DNA from: Alphaproteobacteria bacterium
Lineage (GTDB): Bacteria > Pseudomonadota > Alphaproteobacteria > CAAGCB01 > CAG-977
Reading direction: 5' to 3'
DNA: 64,000 nucleotides
Assembly: GCA_017480385.1 (NCBI GenBank)
Contig: JAFVAT010000024.1
Coordinates: 1 to 64,000 of the forward strand
A program made the position numbers and the translations under genes. This document shows, piece after piece, positions 16,988-63,808 of the stretch (its first letter is position 1; the number at the start of each line of letters is the position of its first letter). A model generated the notes under the pieces. That model saw only the letters and a list, made by a program, of their open reading frames with translations, did not search any database and had not been told where the DNA came from.

Positions 16988-18365
16988 AACAGCGCTTTTT
17001 CTCAGTCTGACCGCGCTGTGCGGGTGCACAATGGGACCGGATTACAAACGTCCCGATACCGTATCGGACACCCAAATCAAAGCATCGTTGAATATCGCAA
17101 ACGAAGCCGTGACTATTGACCGCGAATGGCATAAAGCGTTCGGCGACGATCGTTTAAACGATCTGATCGACTTAGCCCTGCTGGACAGCCCCGATGTCGG
17201 TTCAGCCGTAGAAAAACTGCGTCAAAGCCGGATTGCTTTGGAAATTCAAGGCGTTCAATATTATCCGACCCTTGATGCTTCCGGCGGTTACACAAAGCTA
17301 AAGCCGTCCAAAAATCTGACCAATTCCTACAAAGAAAGCTATTATCAGGCAGGGCTTGACGCCGCGTGGGAACTCGACCTCTGGGGAGCTGGCCGCCGAT
17401 TGACAGAAAACGCCCGCGCCGCAGCTGAAGCCGCCGCCGCAAACCTTGATGACGTGCGGATTTCATTAAAGGCCGAAGTGATTAACAATTATATCAGCCT
17501 GCGTCAGGCTCAGGAACAGCTGCGCCTGCTGTACCGCACATTAAGGCTTCAAAACAAAATCGCCGCTTTGACCACGGATAAGGCACAGTCGGGATTGGTC
17601 AATCAAACAGACTTAGCCCGCGCACAATATGCCGTCGATTCAATCAAGGCGCAAATTCCAGCTTTAAAAATCGCTGCGGCCGCATATAAAAACAATTTAA
17701 CGTTACTGACCGGAAAACTGCCGGAACAGCTGAACGACCTGCTGAGCGACACAGGAAGCAACATTGTCCGGGAAGCCTACATCTATAATCCCTCCGTTCT
17801 GACACAAATCCCCGCGGACGCATTGCGATCCCGTCCCGATGTGCGCGCCGCGGAACAAAAACTGATTGCGCAGAACGCTCTGATCGGCAAAGCGATCGCC
17901 GACCTGTTCCCCTCCGTTTCCCTGACCGGCTTTTTCGGAGTGCAGGCCGACCATTTTAATAAACTTGCCCACCATAACAGCACGATGTTTTCTTTAACAC
18001 CGGGCATAAACATGCCTTTATTCCATTGGGGAGCTTTATTTAAACAAGTCGATCTGGAAAAATCGGCGACGAAAGAAGCCGCCTATGCCTATCAAAAAGC
18101 CGTCCTGAACGCCGCCGCGGAAGTCAAGAACGCCATTATTTCGGTATCGGAACAATTTGCGCAAAATCAAACAAACGGGCAGGCTCTGACCAAAATGCGC
18201 AACATTTCCGCTTTGACGCTGGCACAGTACGATTCCGGATTACTGCCGCTGGACGATACGTTGAAAGTCTTTCAGGATCTGCTGAATGCCAAAACAGCCC
18301 TTATTCAAGGCAACGGCGCATTTTATCTAGCGGTCGTCGGATTTTATAAAGCGATCGGGTACTAG
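16980..18365 (+). CDS. Outer-membrane efflux lipoprotein (NodT/OprM family)
   Basis: TolC-like channel of the tripartite pump. Its signal peptide ends in a lipobox ('ALCGC'), so the mature protein is acylated at that Cys; '[10 protein letters not shown]' right after it is the classic NodT/OprM start. Two OEP repeats with long Ala-rich helices follow. Length is 461 aa. I chose ATG 16980 because it has a good SD (AAGGGAG) and begins the signal peptide; the longer frame from 16854 lies wholly inside the pump gene. Its stop overlaps the convergent terL stop by 4 bp, leaving no room for a terminator. Confidence 0.95.
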
Positions 18366-19672
18366 CCCAGCGGATCATAGTCCCGATACGCCGCCTGCGT
18401 TTGGGAAAACGGGCGTTCCTGCTTGTTCCTTTTTTCTTTGATGCCGCAGGCCAGATAGCGGAACGCATCCGCCGCATGGCTGGTCCAATCGTGTAAAGGT
18501 TTCGGCTGAAAGTCTTTGCGCTGATCGTCCCAGGCGCGCTGATACTGCCGTAATGCCTCCAACCCTTTGGCGCATTTTTCCTTATCAAAGCGGCAGCGGG
18601 GCAACAACAAACGCACAGCCGCAATCCCGCTGTCAACGCTTACCCGCGGCAGAACGCGCCCGCGCACGCCCAGTCCCGCCAGCAAATCAAGCCGGCTTTT
18701 CCCGCTGGACAATTCGTGCACGCCGATATCGTGCGGAAAAATATTGTCGTCCGTATAAACATAAGGCTTGCTTTTTAATTCCCGCACATAGTGATCCAAG
18801 CCCACGCCACTAGCCTCATAATAGTCGATGACGAACACTTCCGCGCCGTTTGTTTGAAAAAACCAGATTGCCGTGCTGTCTCCGATCCCCAAATCCCAAG
18901 CCGTTGTCACGGGCAAAGCGGGATCATACGGCACTGAACCGATCCGCCCGTTGTTTTCCAATTCATTCAACAAAGCGCCGTAATAGCTTCCTTTCAGCGC
19001 CGCGTCGAAAGAACAGTAAAACTCCTGCTGAATGACGCTTTCGTCCATACCGGCGCGGCGTTCCGCTTCAACGGCGGATTGAGGAATGGCGCGCGTTTCC
19101 GAAACGACCAGTTTTTGCGCAAACCACCCCTCGGCCGCTTCGGCGGTTTCAAACAAAGTCAGGCCGTGATTGCGTCCTCTGGGGGTGTAGATGAACAACG
19201 CCCACCCGTCGTTTTCCGCCAAAATCGGACGTATGAAGTCCCACGCCGCCGGATCGGCGATCGAATATTCCGAAAACACGACCCCGACGGGGTTCGCCCC
19301 GACCAAAGAATTATAGCCGTCCGATCCGACACACTGCCAAATCGACCCGTTCAAAAGCTCGATTTTCATTTCCTGCGCGTTCGCCGACTTGCGCAAAGCC
19401 TTCGGAAACACCTGATCGATCACGCGCCTGCCCTGCTTGTCGATCGCGTCCCAGACGACTTTGCGCGCCTGCGTCTGCAAAGGCAACATATGCCAATAAA
19501 CGCCGACCCTTTGCATCGCCGCGACCGCCGTCCAATTCAGCGAAAGACTGTCCTTGCCCGCGCGCCTGTGCCAAACCGCCACCGCCCGTTTTCCGCCGTT
19601 TTCCAAATAATTCCACAATTTCATCTGATACTTGCGGGGCTTCCATTTATAAGGAATCTTGATATTGACCAT
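18362..19672 (-). CDS. Phage-type terminase large subunit (TerL), solitary
   Basis: ATP-driven DNA packaging motor with nuclease. P-loop 'WHRRAGKD' (residues 34-41). Walker B 'VGVVFSEY' (129-136), with catalytic Glu135 preceded by Ser rather than Asp. Coupling motif 'TPRGRNHG' (163-170). The RNase H-like nuclease has likely metal-binding Asp260 ('AWDLG'), Asp315 ('FPHDIG') and Asp402 ('HAADAFRY'), and 'QQEFYCSF' is also typical. Length is 436 aa. All key residues look intact, so it is not a decayed remnant. The SD is GGAGA. No head, portal or tail gene adjoins it; neighbours are the efflux operon and a structured RNA. A domesticated gene-transfer-agent role is an inference. Confidence 0.9.
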   Translation of the reverse strand: MVNIKIPYKWKPRKYQMKLWNYLENGGKRAVAVWHRRAGKDSLSLNWTAVAAMQRVGVYWHMLPLQTQARKVVWDAIDKQGRRVIDQVFPKALRKSANAQEMKIELLNGSIWQCVGSDGYNSLVGANPVGVVFSEYSIADPAAWDFIRPILAENDGWALFIYTPRGRNHGLTLFETAEAAEGWFAQKLVVSETRAIPQSAVEAERRAGMDESVIQQEFYCSFDAALKGSYYGALLNELENNGRIGSVPYDPALPVTTAWDLGIGDSTAIWFFQTNGAEVFVIDYYEASGVGLDHYVRELKSKPYVYTDDNIFPHDIGVHELSSGKSRLDLLAGLGVRGRVLPRVSVDSGIAAVRLLLPRCRFDKEKCAKGLEALRQYQRAWDDQRKDFQPKPLHDWTSHAADAFRYLACGIKEKRNKQERPFSQTQAAYRDYDPLG

Positions 19673-19823: not shown

Positions 19824-20048
19824 CATACGGCAACGTATGTCAAGTGCCTGAAAAGGGGCGGAGTCCTGAAAAAACTCTTTAAAGTAGTTATATTTTGACC
19901 CTTTGTGCTATTGCATAAAGGGCTTTTGTTCCTGACTTTCACAGCAAGGGTCGGGAGTCTTTGTGCAGTAATGCACAGAGGGTCGTTCTTATAACTACTT
20001 GCGATTTTTTCAGCTCCCGACCGCCTTTCATCAGGCGGTTTTTATTTT
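19824..20048 (+). ncRNA. Candidate structured RNA ending in an intrinsic terminator (leader or sRNA)
   Basis: Elements in order. Hairpin 19824-19839 with GCAA tetraloop. An 11-bp stem strand, 19882-19892. A 10-bp hairpin at 19899-19922 with one G-U. Strand 19950-19957. A 9-bp hairpin at 19959-19980 with GUAA tetraloop. Strand 19990-20000, fully complementary to 19882-19892. Strand 20014-20021, fully complementary to 19950-19957. The last two pairings interleave, so they form a pseudoknot or alternative folds. A terminator (CCGCCT/AGGCGG, 20021-20038, then T-rich to 20048) closes it. GNRA loops and the T-run favour the + strand. It matches no RNA family I recognise, and the promoter was not identified. 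Confidence 0.55.
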
Positions 20049-20064: not shown

Positions 20065-20637
20065 ATGAAAAAGTTTCAAGCAGTTGTCGCCCTTTTCCTG
20101 TTATCGGGATGCGGTACCGTTTTTTCGGGAACGCAACAAAACGTCACCGTCAACACCAACGTTCCGGAAGCGAAGGTTTATGTCAACGGTATGCCGATGT
20201 GTTCGACACCTTGCGCCATTGATTTGAACAGAAGCAATACCAACGTCACGCTTATTTTGAAAAAAGACGGATATGAAGATACGGTATTTGTTCTGAAATC
20301 ACAGTGGAATCCGATTACCATCATCAATCTTTCATCAGTTTACAGCTGGACGACGGATTTTGTTTCCGGAGGCGTATGGAGATATTCTCCCGACTCCGTT
20401 TATGTGGAAATGGACAAGAAGGATATGACAAAGGCCGAAACGGAACAGTCGCGCAAAAAATCGCAAATCCGCCGTTTTGTTCTGTTTAACTTTTCGGCTT
20501 TGAAAAGCGGAAACAAAGAGCATCTGACTTCTTTGTCCGTTTTGACGGGATTAAAAACGGATCGTTTAAGCGAGTTGATGAAAAGCGCGTCCGATGAAAT
20601 CGACGCCGCCGATAAAATCGTTCTGATTGCCGGTTGA
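20065..20637 (+). CDS. PEGA-domain lipoprotein
   Basis: A 190-aa envelope lipoprotein. Its signal peptide ends in the lipobox 'LLSGC', so it is anchored by an acylated Cys. A PEGA-like domain follows: 'NTNVPEAKVYVNGMPMCSTPCAIDL' with a surface beta-sandwich pattern up to 'LKKDGYEDTVFVL'. The remainder (about 100-190) is charged and unrecognised. I chose ATG 20065 because it has the SD AAAGGAG and begins the signal peptide. It lies directly downstream of the candidate structured RNA and its terminator, so expression may need read-through or a terminator/antiterminator decision. Confidence 0.75.
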   Translation: MKKFQAVVALFLLSGCGTVFSGTQQNVTVNTNVPEAKVYVNGMPMCSTPCAIDLNRSNTNVTLILKKDGYEDTVFVLKSQWNPITIINLSSVYSWTTDFVSGGVWRYSPDSVYVEMDKKDMTKAETEQSRKKSQIRRFVLFNFSALKSGNKEHLTSLSVLTGLKTDRLSELMKSASDEIDAADKIVLIAG

Positions 20638-24342: not shown

Positions 24343-24720
24343 GGGCGTCGGAGGATCGGGCGGTCGCGGTGCGCTGCAAAATGCGTACTGAGGAAAGTCC
24401 GGGCTTCACGGAAACACGATACCGGATAACGTCCGGCTGGGGCAACCCAAGGGAAAGCGCAGCAGAAAAAATTCCGCCGATGTCTTTATAATTAAAGACA
24501 GGCAAGGTTGAAATGGTGCGGTAAGAGCGCACCGCTTTTTCGGCAACGGAAAAGGCACGGCAAGCCCTATCGGAAGCAAGACCAAGTAAGGTATACGCAA
24601 TTCGTATTGCGGGGCGTTTCCGCCCCCGCCAGAGGTAGGTCGCTACAGACGTTTGGCAACAAACGCCGCAGATGAATGATCGCCGATTACAAAACCCGGC
24701 TTATAGATTTTCCGGCGCCT
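24343..24720 (+). ncRNA. rnpB: RNase P RNA (class A)
   Basis: Catalytic RNA that matures tRNA 5' ends. The conserved core 'GAGGAAAGTCCGGGCTTCAC' lies near 24391-24410. 'AGGGAAAGCGCAGCAGA' comes later. 'GGTAAGAGCGCACCG' follows, and the 3' core has 'AGATGAATGATCGCC' and 'AACCCGGCTTATAG'. Helix P1 forms between GGCGTCGGA (24344-24352) and TCCGGCGCC (24711-24719). A short T-run follows (24722-24726). Length of about 378 nt is typical. Confidence 0.96.
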
Positions 24721-61820: not shown

Positions 61821-61930
61821 TTGGCAATCTTCAAGCGGATCAACATATTTAAATTTCTATTTCAAGCTTAAAAAAACATATTCTATTGTATTATTTTTTC
61901 AGATGCAAAAACATCGTGTTTCTGCGTTTA

Positions 61931-62060
61931 GAGCCTGAAAAAGACAGGTTCGGAGCCGTCAGAAGCTCTTACTGTGAGCGGTGTTTGATATGAACGCCAT
62001 ATAACCTTTTTGCATATGGCACAGAGGGATTATATCCCCGATTTTTATTATGGATCGGGG
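61931..62060. other. Candidate structured RNA or regulatory region
   Basis: Five consecutive inverted repeats: GAGCCTG/CAGGTTC (61931-61937 with 61945-61951), GGTGTT/AACGCC (61980-61985 with 61993-61998), GCCATAT/ATATGGC (61996-62002 with 62014-62020), GGGAT/ATCCC (62026-62030 with 62034-62038) and CCCCGAT/ATCGGGG (62036-62042 with 62054-62060). Neighbouring pairs share strands, so alternative folds are possible. Strand and function are unknown. Confidence 0.4.
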
Positions 62061-62329
62061 AGGATTTGATGTATGTTTAGAAGCCCCGAAGTTTTCTTTT
62101 GATTACTCAAAATCAATCTGAAACGAGATACGTTATTTTTCCCGTATCCGTCAACAGCGGATTTGAGGGCAGACGGAAGCCTTGTATAAAATGATATGGC
62201 AGGATACGCGTTTTATAATACGCTCCGGCTCTGCGAGGCACAATCGGGTGAAAAGCCTGTTTTTGCCTTCCCGCTTGTTTTTATCGCCTTGTCCCTCTAA
62301 AATAAGTTGTTCTTTTGTTTAAGGCGGGT

Positions 62330-63808
62330 ATGGCAATGATTACAGGCGTGATTAAAAACAAAGTCGATAAAATCTGGACGGACATCTTTGCGGGCGGAAT
62401 TACCAATCCGATTACGGTGATCGAGCAGCTGACATATTTGATGTTTATTCACGATTTGGACGTAAAAGAGCTGGAAACGGAGCGGCTTGAAAATCTGACG
62501 CACGAAAAGATGGACAGGATTTTTCCGCTAACACCTGCGGGGCAAGCGTTAAGGTGGCACAATTTCAAAGACAAGAACGCCGCCGAGATTTACGAAACGA
62601 TCAAAGACCGCCTTTTTCCCTTTATCAAGAACGAGCTTGGCAAAGACGGTCAATCGGCGTTTTCGCGCTATATGAGCGACGCGATATTTTTATTCCCGAC
62701 GCCGCAAATCGTTGAAAAAGTCGTTACGGGATTGGAAGATTTATATCAATGCGACCTGACGGGAATGGACGTTCAAGGCGACCTGTATGAATATATGCTG
62801 GACAAGCTGGCGACTTCGGGCAGAAATGGGCAATTCAGAACGCCCGCGCAAATTCGCGAGATGATGGTGCGCCTGATCGAACCGACGCCCGATTCAAAGA
62901 TTTGCGATCCGGCTTGCGGCACGGCGGGCTTTTTGATTTCAAGCGCGGAGTTTATCCGCTCCAACTATGAAACCGTGATGACGGAAGAACAATGGAGCCG
63001 TTTTTCGGGCGATATGTTCAGCGGGTTCGACACGGATCCGACGATGTTGCGGATTTCTTCAATGAATTTGATGCTTCATTCGATCATAACGCCGACGATC
63101 GAATACAAAGACAGCGTTTCCAAAACGAACGGCATTGCGGAAGAATACGACATCATTCTGGCAAATCCGCCGTTTTCGGGCAACATTGACAAAGAAGGCG
63201 TCAGCGACGATTTAAAGCGGGTTTGCAATACGACAAAGACGGAATTGCTGTTTGTCGCCCTGTTTTTGCGAATGTTGAAAAAAGGAGGACGTTGCGCCTG
63301 CATCGTTCCGGACGGCGTTTTGTTCGGCACGACGAACGCGCATCAGGCGTTGCGCAAGGAATTGATCGAAAATCATCATTTGCAAGCCGTTATTTCGATG
63401 CCGTCTGGCGTGTTCAAGCCGTATTCGGGCGTTTCGACCGCCGTTCTGGTCTTTACCAAGACGGGAGCCGGAGGAACGGACAAGGTTTGGTTTTATGATA
63501 TGAAAGCGGACGGGTTCAGTTTGGACGACAAGCGCAATCCTGTAACAAACAACGACATTCCCGACATAATAAAACGATTTCACGCGCTTGACGCGGAAAA
63601 AGACCGCAAACGCACGGATCAAAGCTTTTTCGTGGATAAAACGGATATCGCGCGGAACAACTACGACCTGTCAATCAACCGGTATAAAGAAGTCGTGTAT
63701 GAAAAAATCGACTATGAAAAACCGGACGTGATTTTGAACCGCATAGACGCTTTAATCACCGACATCGCGGCAGAAACGAAAAAAGTCAGAGAAATGCTGA
63801 AGGGATAA
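62330..63808 (+). CDS. hsdM: Type I restriction-modification DNA methyltransferase (HsdM)
   Basis: N6-adenine methyltransferase subunit of a type I R-M system. N-terminal HsdM_N helical domain ('NKVDKIWTDIFAGGITNP', 'HEKMDRIFPLTP') then the N6_Mtase domain: motif I 'DPACGTAGFL' (near residue 195) and catalytic NPPF ('ILANPPFSGN', near 278). 'GRNGQFRTPAQIREMM' matches well. Length is 492 aa. Starts at TTG 62315, ATG 62330 and ATG 62336 are possible; 62330 is used. hsdS and hsdR are not in the window. Confidence 0.94.
   Translation: MAMITGVIKNKVDKIWTDIFAGGITNPITVIEQLTYLMFIHDLDVKELETERLENLTHEKMDRIFPLTPAGQALRWHNFKDKNAAEIYETIKDRLFPFIKNELGKDGQSAFSRYMSDAIFLFPTPQIVEKVVTGLEDLYQCDLTGMDVQGDLYEYMLDKLATSGRNGQFRTPAQIREMMVRLIEPTPDSKICDPACGTAGFLISSAEFIRSNYETVMTEEQWSRFSGDMFSGFDTDPTMLRISSMNLMLHSIITPTIEYKDSVSKTNGIAEEYDIILANPPFSGNIDKEGVSDDLKRVCNTTKTELLFVALFLRMLKKGGRCACIVPDGVLFGTTNAHQALRKELIENHHLQAVISMPSGVFKPYSGVSTAVLVFTKTGAGGTDKVWFYDMKADGFSLDDKRNPVTNNDIPDIIKRFHALDAEKDRKRTDQSFFVDKTDIARNNYDLSINRYKEVVYEKIDYEKPDVILNRIDALITDIAAETKKVREMLKG

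Follow-up and report, generated by a model that had tools for sequence, protein, structure and literature searches.

The leader RNA and its architecture

The window (the whole stretch of 64,000 nucleotides analysed here) carries a strongly structured RNA immediately ahead of a gene for a PEGA-domain lipoprotein, and the question raised by this locus is what such an RNA does at that position. The initial annotation described a pseudoknotted RNA of no known family, acting either through riboswitch-like terminator control or as a stand-alone small RNA. The reading developed below, which we regard as probable, is that the region is a gene-proximal leader that encodes an antisense RNA directed at the gene it precedes, that it shares the design of the C4 RNA of phages P1 and P7, and that it forms one extended family with sRNA-Xcc1 (Rfam RF02221).

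The RNA at 19824-20048 folds with a free energy of -102.2 kcal/mol, compared with -56.2 ± 4.1 kcal/mol for shuffled sequences (z = -11.2; none of 200 shuffles as good). The structural elements first reported are borne out: the three hairpins are present (P0, H1 and H3 in Table 1), the 11-bp long-range stem (P2a/P2b) is complementary at every position, the second stem, described as 8 bp, extends to nine (M/E), and these two helices interleave as a pseudoknot. Overlooked at that stage were a 9-bp helix (P1a/P1b) that stacks on the 11-bp stem, the match to the gene start, the paralogues in the same genome and a second copy of the RNA in the window.

Folded in isolation, the 77-nt core reaches -35.6 kcal/mol (z = -6.2), its minimum free energy (MFE) structure comprising the closing stem M-E, one hairpin, and a second hairpin with P2b in its loop, while P1b lies largely in the linker. 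The closing stem recurs in the MFE fold of the core in 50 of 54 copies, both address segments being about 70% unpaired. The base following E is a purine in all 46 aligned copies, and the next base is C in 45 of these.

Table 1. Positions of the leader elements, the downstream gene and the second RNA copy within the 64,000-nt window.
Feature	Positions	Strand	Remarks
P0, 5' hairpin, GCAA loop	19824..19839	+	hairpin of variable sequence at the equivalent place in other copies
Pa hairpin region, GUGCCU-GAAA-AGGGGC	19844..19859	+	one mismatch in the window copy; helix 1 of the 46-copy alignment
P1a, first half of decoy (b1-like)	19866..19874	+	9/9 complementary to 20005-20013; helix 2 of alignment
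P2a, second half of decoy (a1-like), hypervariable address	19882..19892	+	11/11 complementary to 19990-20000; helix 3 of alignment
H1 hairpin	19899..19922	+	
H2 hairpin, UUCCUGAC..GGUCGGGAG	19930..19957	+	competes with the M-E stem; helix 6 of alignment
M strand, GGUCGGGAG, starts GGU	19949..19957	+	5' side of the closing stem; 9/9 complementary to 20014-20022
Core, C4-like / sRNA-Xcc1-like, 77 nt	19949..20025	+	
H3 hairpin, GUAA loop	19959..19980	+	
P2b, antisense address (a'-like)	19990..20000	+	in hairpin loop of the isolated core
P1b, second antisense segment (b'-like)	20005..20013	+	mostly in linker of the isolated core
E strand, CUCCCGACC	20014..20022	+	3' side of the closing stem; shares ACC with the 5' arm of the terminator
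GCC, RCC motif after the closing stem	20023..20025	+	possible RNase P contact
Intrinsic terminator, ACCGCC-TTTCATCA-GGCGGT plus T-run	20020..20048	+	helix 9 of alignment, 97.5% paired
PEGA-domain lipoprotein gene	20065..20637	+	PF08308, 2.3e-9; ATG at 20065; putatively under leader control
A', lipoprotein start region, ATGAAAAAGTTTCAAGCAGTTGTCGCC including the start codon	20065..20091	+	candidate second antisense target (a2/b2-like)
Second RNA copy in the window	61922..62090 (approx.)	+	R2 E 1.3e-22

Covariation of the long-range helices

The initial annotation had named covariance analysis as the check on these stems, and the stems covary across dozens of copies. Helices P1 and P2 differ in sequence in almost every copy while their pairing stays perfect. 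In an alignment-free test, the 5' and 3' strands of the same copy form duplexes with a mean of -21.3 kcal/mol, against -9.9 kcal/mol with the strands of other copies, and in 55 copies the cognate strand is the best or second-best partner among the 62. In the 46-copy alignment, 89.1% of cells pair (76.9% in shuffles), double changes number 396 (134 ± 10 in shuffles), and the covariation score is 0.413 (0.202 shuffled), with none of 500 shuffles reaching the observed pairing, double changes or score; the signal is destroyed when partners are slid by one column. All eight aligned pairs of P2 covary, and Pa is paired in 95.3% of cells with double changes in four of its six pairs.

Within the main subclass the M-E stem hardly varies and therefore shows little covariation of its own. 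Between subclasses it changes as a pair, as read by eye: GGUCGGGAG/CUCCCGACC in the window is replaced by GGUCGGGGAG/CUCCCCGACC in another subclass, by GGCAGGAAG/CUUCCUGCC in G005_C8 and by CGGGCGGAUG/CAUCCGCCCG in G011_C25. These paired changes, the decoy comparison at canonical sRNA-Xcc1 loci (below) and the presence of the closing stem in 50 of the 54 core folds support M-E. Elsewhere in the RNA, a GUAUGUYCAGA..AAAGG element is strongly conserved in the class-2 H3 of most copies (alignment A3, columns 197-214/255-270) and is lost in the subclass to which the window copy belongs.

Copies, distribution and gene context

The leader belongs to a largely unrecognised family with many copies. Searches with blastn recover two paralogues in the genome of the window and further copies in three genus mates, and a covariance model, R1, built from those seven copies detects the RNA in 11 of 12 genomes of the host's family, mostly with 4-14 matches each, many of them full length (E 1e-79 to 1e-8). 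A pattern scan of contigs representing one genome per species returned 46 stretches, almost all from uncultured ruminant or gut Alphaproteobacteria; exact-pattern scans of a viral contig collection gave no match, so among those contigs the RNA is no widespread phage element. The model R2, which combines 46 copies with an explicit structure, has matches in 33 of 385 Alphaproteobacteria genomes spread over many families, and blastn with one relative from this set matches 249 plasmid records, most of them from alphaproteobacterial, conjugative plasmids. In the alphaproteobacterial plasmid loci L249-L256, among them Rhizobium etli CIAT 652 plasmid pB (L249) and Paracoccus aminophilus pAMI8 (L250), a version of about 200 nt precedes small HTH, DUF2285 and hypothetical genes; the conjugative-plasmid version is unannotated in most of the approximately 250 records.

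A start codon on the same strand occurs within a few dozen bases 3' of nearly every copy. The genes that follow include restriction-modification (R-M) genes (type III, EcoRI-type, C5 and N6 methyltransferases, type ISP/IIG enzymes), an SNF2 helicase of defence type, GmrSD-like and Mrr-like nucleases, glycosyltransferases, SHOCT proteins, PEGA lipoproteins, autotransporters and PilS-like pilins. The second copy in the window precedes a type I R-M operon (hsdM at about 62330-63808, then an ATPase-like ORF and an hsdS-like ORF), and its 3' end is replaced after CCCCGA by a junction to AGTTTTCTTTTGATTACTC.

Two genus mates hold an intact pair of RNA and lipoprotein gene at a locus with rbfA and a HAD gene. 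In the genome of the window, a decayed RNA (L038:3861-4095, minus strand; G000:C38) and a decayed lipoprotein remnant lie beside rbfA and the HAD gene, and the intact pair stands beside terL, which indicates that RNA and lipoprotein gene travel together. The neighbouring terL, which the initial annotation had noted beside the RNA, adjoins a copy in two genomes only, and since copies elsewhere have no neighbouring terL, it does not seem to be part of the element. The terL-like ORF itself (18362-19672, minus strand; 436 aa) has no Pfam match at E 0.01 and no other phage genes beside it within the part read.

A third-subclass RNA with a small regulator-like ORF forms three tandem 465-bp units at L259 (G004:C30:7000-8100), an arrangement reminiscent of a Xylella island in which five sRNA-Xcc1 copies are reported in tandem. 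At L079 (G006:C3), the alpha tmRNA gene, a usual insertion site of islands, is directly adjoined by a copy that precedes a type ISP R-M gene; a search of the window for tRNA and tmRNA genes returned none. The sequence GATATGGTTTTAAAGCG occurs near contig ends in L132 (G006:C19), L120 (G002:C6), L161 (G002:C23) and G007:C40, and in the first three it is fused to RNA copies at CTCYCCGA; one of these contigs carries a serine recombinase ORF several hundred bp further on. Site-specific recombination at the E strand of the core is a possible source of these junctions. A serine recombinase as a constant partner of the RNA was considered and rejected, as the junction is found at four contigs only and recombinase homologues do not track the copies. 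The RNase P RNA gene at 24348-24719 (plus strand; RF00010, 292 bits) is a coincidental neighbour.

Complementarity to the start of the downstream gene

Two partners are available to the antisense strand of the leader: the decoy P1a/P2a, to which it is perfectly complementary, and the region around the lipoprotein start codon, where the match is less complete. Its 19981-20013 segment forms a predicted duplex of -19.8 kcal/mol with A' (rank 2 of 56 copies), and 19993-20012 matches 20066-20085 of the gene start at 80% complementarity. In the orthologue from G005, the start-region duplex reaches -24.5 kcal/mol (rank 0). Over the rumen family, own start regions pair at -13.3 kcal/mol against -12.2 ± 0.37 kcal/mol in within-genome permutations (P 0.003), an effect weaker than at canonical sRNA-Xcc1 loci, the match being clear in part of the rumen copies only.

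Relation to sRNA-Xcc1

At gathering cut-offs, no Rfam family is matched by the leader, and when gathering and permissive thresholds are applied to the window and related loci, RF02221 appears in the relatives and no other family does. The statement that the RNA belongs to no known family thus holds at Rfam cut-offs but not in substance, as the RNA is a distant, extended relative of RF02221 with C4 architecture. The window copy scores 24.6 bits against RF02221 at 19949-20030 (E 0.053-0.068), short of the cut-off of 53, and its core has the closing stem, two hairpins and variable loop of that family. All copies of the rumen family remain below the cut-off, with up to 23 subthreshold matches per genome. 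Intermediates recognised by both models exist: in L240, an RF02221 match of 56.2 bits lies inside an R2 match (E 4.5e-7), and the plasmid copies have R2 E values of 1e-6 to 1e-14, several scoring 31-35 bits against RF02221. As the window copy is below the cut-off and R2 recognises none of 31 canonical RF02221 loci, it is the intermediates and the shared architecture that argue for common descent.

Canonical loci were examined in 30 cases drawn from 398 Pseudomonadota genomes, together with a Neisseria prophage. In most of the 30, and in the prophage, an upstream decoy half is complementary to the variable loop of the sRNA and to its linker, in the manner of P1a/P2a, so that by sequence the 87-nt sRNA-Xcc1 is the 3' half of a longer element (own -28.2 versus swapped -23.6 kcal/mol); the many unambiguous examples include L279, L283, L289, L298, L300 and L305. 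At many of the loci, the decoy sequence recurs at the ribosome-binding region of the gene that follows (own -21.4 versus swapped -16.9 kcal/mol). Locus L285, for instance, has CTCAAAAG..AATCTAAAC upstream and CTCAAAAGGAAATCTAAACTATG at the gene start, and similar repeats occur in L297, L298, L296, L283, L287 and L292, near-identical in L285, L297 and L298, among others. The canonical downstream genes checked encode Bro-N, KilA-N, P22_AR_N and Rha antirepressors and SymE toxins, and some have no Pfam match.

Proposed mechanism and alternatives

We propose that the transcript would be trimmed at GGU-19949, as RNase P trims C4, which would remove the decoy and free the antisense strand. Once free, the core may prevent its own gene from being translated, and likewise any incoming copy that carries the same address. 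The terminator could serve as a second gate, because the M-E closing stem and the terminator compete for ACC (20020-20022); alternatively, H2 may sequester M. Because addresses differ from copy to copy within a genome, the regulators should not cross-talk. The proposal of a pseudoknotted RNA with terminator control is supported by the covarying helices and by the gene that directly follows nearly every copy; the riboswitch and the stand-alone small RNA offered with it miss the likeliest mode, an antisense strand aimed at the following gene.

The competition for M and E is also what a ligand- or protein-sensing, riboswitch-like attenuator would use: M pairs with the 5' arm of H2 or with E, E overlaps the terminator, and the choice between H2 and the M-E pseudoknot would decide whether the terminator forms or, in some copies, a hairpin sequestering the Shine-Dalgarno (SD) sequence, the complementarity to the gene start then being incidental. 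Several copies lacking the U-run place an SD-like GGGGA opposite CUCCCC (G002_C2_172802, G006_C129, G011_C32), and the GUAUGUYCAGA conserved in H3 of most copies also speaks for this reading. We nevertheless hold an attenuator to be unlikely: perfect, hypervariable P1/P2 addresses that differ within one genome are not riboswitch-like, the canonical relatives repeat the address at the ribosome-binding site, the regulated genes have no metabolic theme or common metabolic gene set, and no known aptamer in Rfam is matched. A stand-alone, terminated small RNA acting in trans on unrelated targets, with the downstream gene under its own control, would accord with the strong terminator and with the report of sRNA-Xcc1 as an 88-nt sRNA (PMC2996969), yet it is very improbable, since a gene starts within a few dozen nucleotides of nearly every copy, leaving little room in the window for another promoter, and since RNA and lipoprotein gene move jointly between loci. 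Least credible of all is a mobile structured DNA site of attC-like or MITE-like type in place of a functional RNA, which would account for the scattered copies, the attC-like hypervariability of the stems, the relatives in integron and plasmid context and the 3' ends that have recombined at CTCYCCGA, in one case close to a serine recombinase, but not for the strand-specific terminator, the fixed orientation to the gene, the promoter-like sequence ahead of 25 of 62 copies where 2.6 are expected, and the gene start regions fitted to the same strand.

The antisense-leader reading explains why each copy has a hypervariable helix of its own, and it predicts the target of every copy directly from sequence alone. 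More tentatively, and with the balance slightly against so broad a claim, sRNA-Xcc1 and the rumen family might constitute one Pseudomonadota-wide class of self-encoded antisense leaders (decoy, antisense core, target site), serving as exchangeable, copy-specific "immunity addresses" on R-M, surface, toxin and antirepressor cassettes, whereby a resident cassette would silence an incoming identical one. In that case, what is widely annotated as RF02221 would be one half of an extended control element encoded in cis, and regulation of a kind so far familiar chiefly from phage P1 would also operate on R-M systems, autotransporters, integron cassettes and conjugative plasmids.

Comparison with known systems

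Terminator-type riboswitches and attenuators resemble the leader in having mutually exclusive helices by an intrinsic terminator directly ahead of a gene, whereas the family of the window has hypervariable, copy-specific long-range helices.

sRNA-Xcc1 was reported as an sRNA by RACE and Northern analysis (PMC2996969), occurs in seven copies in Xylella (PMC12189769), and precedes symE in the Xanthomonas cassette with the widest distribution (PMC12444791). It shares with the leader the M-E closing stem, a structured hairpin, a variable-loop hairpin, the linker and the 3' strand, as well as its multicopy occurrence and its position ahead of a gene. It differs in that Rfam models the 87-nt 3' half (M to E) only, as a free sRNA gene, whereas the window copy includes a 5' half of 125 nt, its H3 is simplified and lacks the AAUACAA element, and it carries an intrinsic terminator and precedes a lipoprotein gene.

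In the C4 system, RNase P cleaves a longer precursor at the closing stem to give an RNA of about 77 nt, in which loop a' acts as the address and b' covers the ribosome-binding site; a multicopy, processed set of C4 RNAs with GGW 5' ends is described in Acinetobacter baumannii (PMC5320573), and a c4-a1b1 motif is listed in PMC2864571. The leader resembles C4 in its core of about 77 nt with three stems, in the placement of a' in a hairpin loop with b' beside it, in its GGW start, and in a candidate target at the ribosome-binding site of the putatively co-transcribed downstream gene. C4 has an upstream duplicate of its target, a1/b1. The window copy likewise carries one, namely P1a/P2a, and its address is complementary to the start of the co-oriented gene that follows. 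It differs from C4 in the extra hairpins P0, Pa, H1 and H2 and in the intrinsic terminator, which, between the antisense strand and the gene, is to our knowledge not part of the P1 system. The cargo differs as well: restriction and surface genes in the lineage of the window, where the gene following the leader encodes a PEGA lipoprotein and not an antirepressor; antirepressors, the kind of gene controlled by C4, follow canonical RF02221 relatives. The C4 models RF01695 and RF02944 (c4-2) match neither the window nor the copies, and the kinship suggested is one of architecture only: the RNA appears to work like C4 and is not filed as C4. RNase P requires an RCC motif on pseudoknot substrates (PMC12710915), and this motif is nearly perfect in the rumen copies and present in less than half of the canonical RF02221 members. 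The GGU start, the GCC tail and the 77-nt length of the window core would fit C4-like processing by RNase P.
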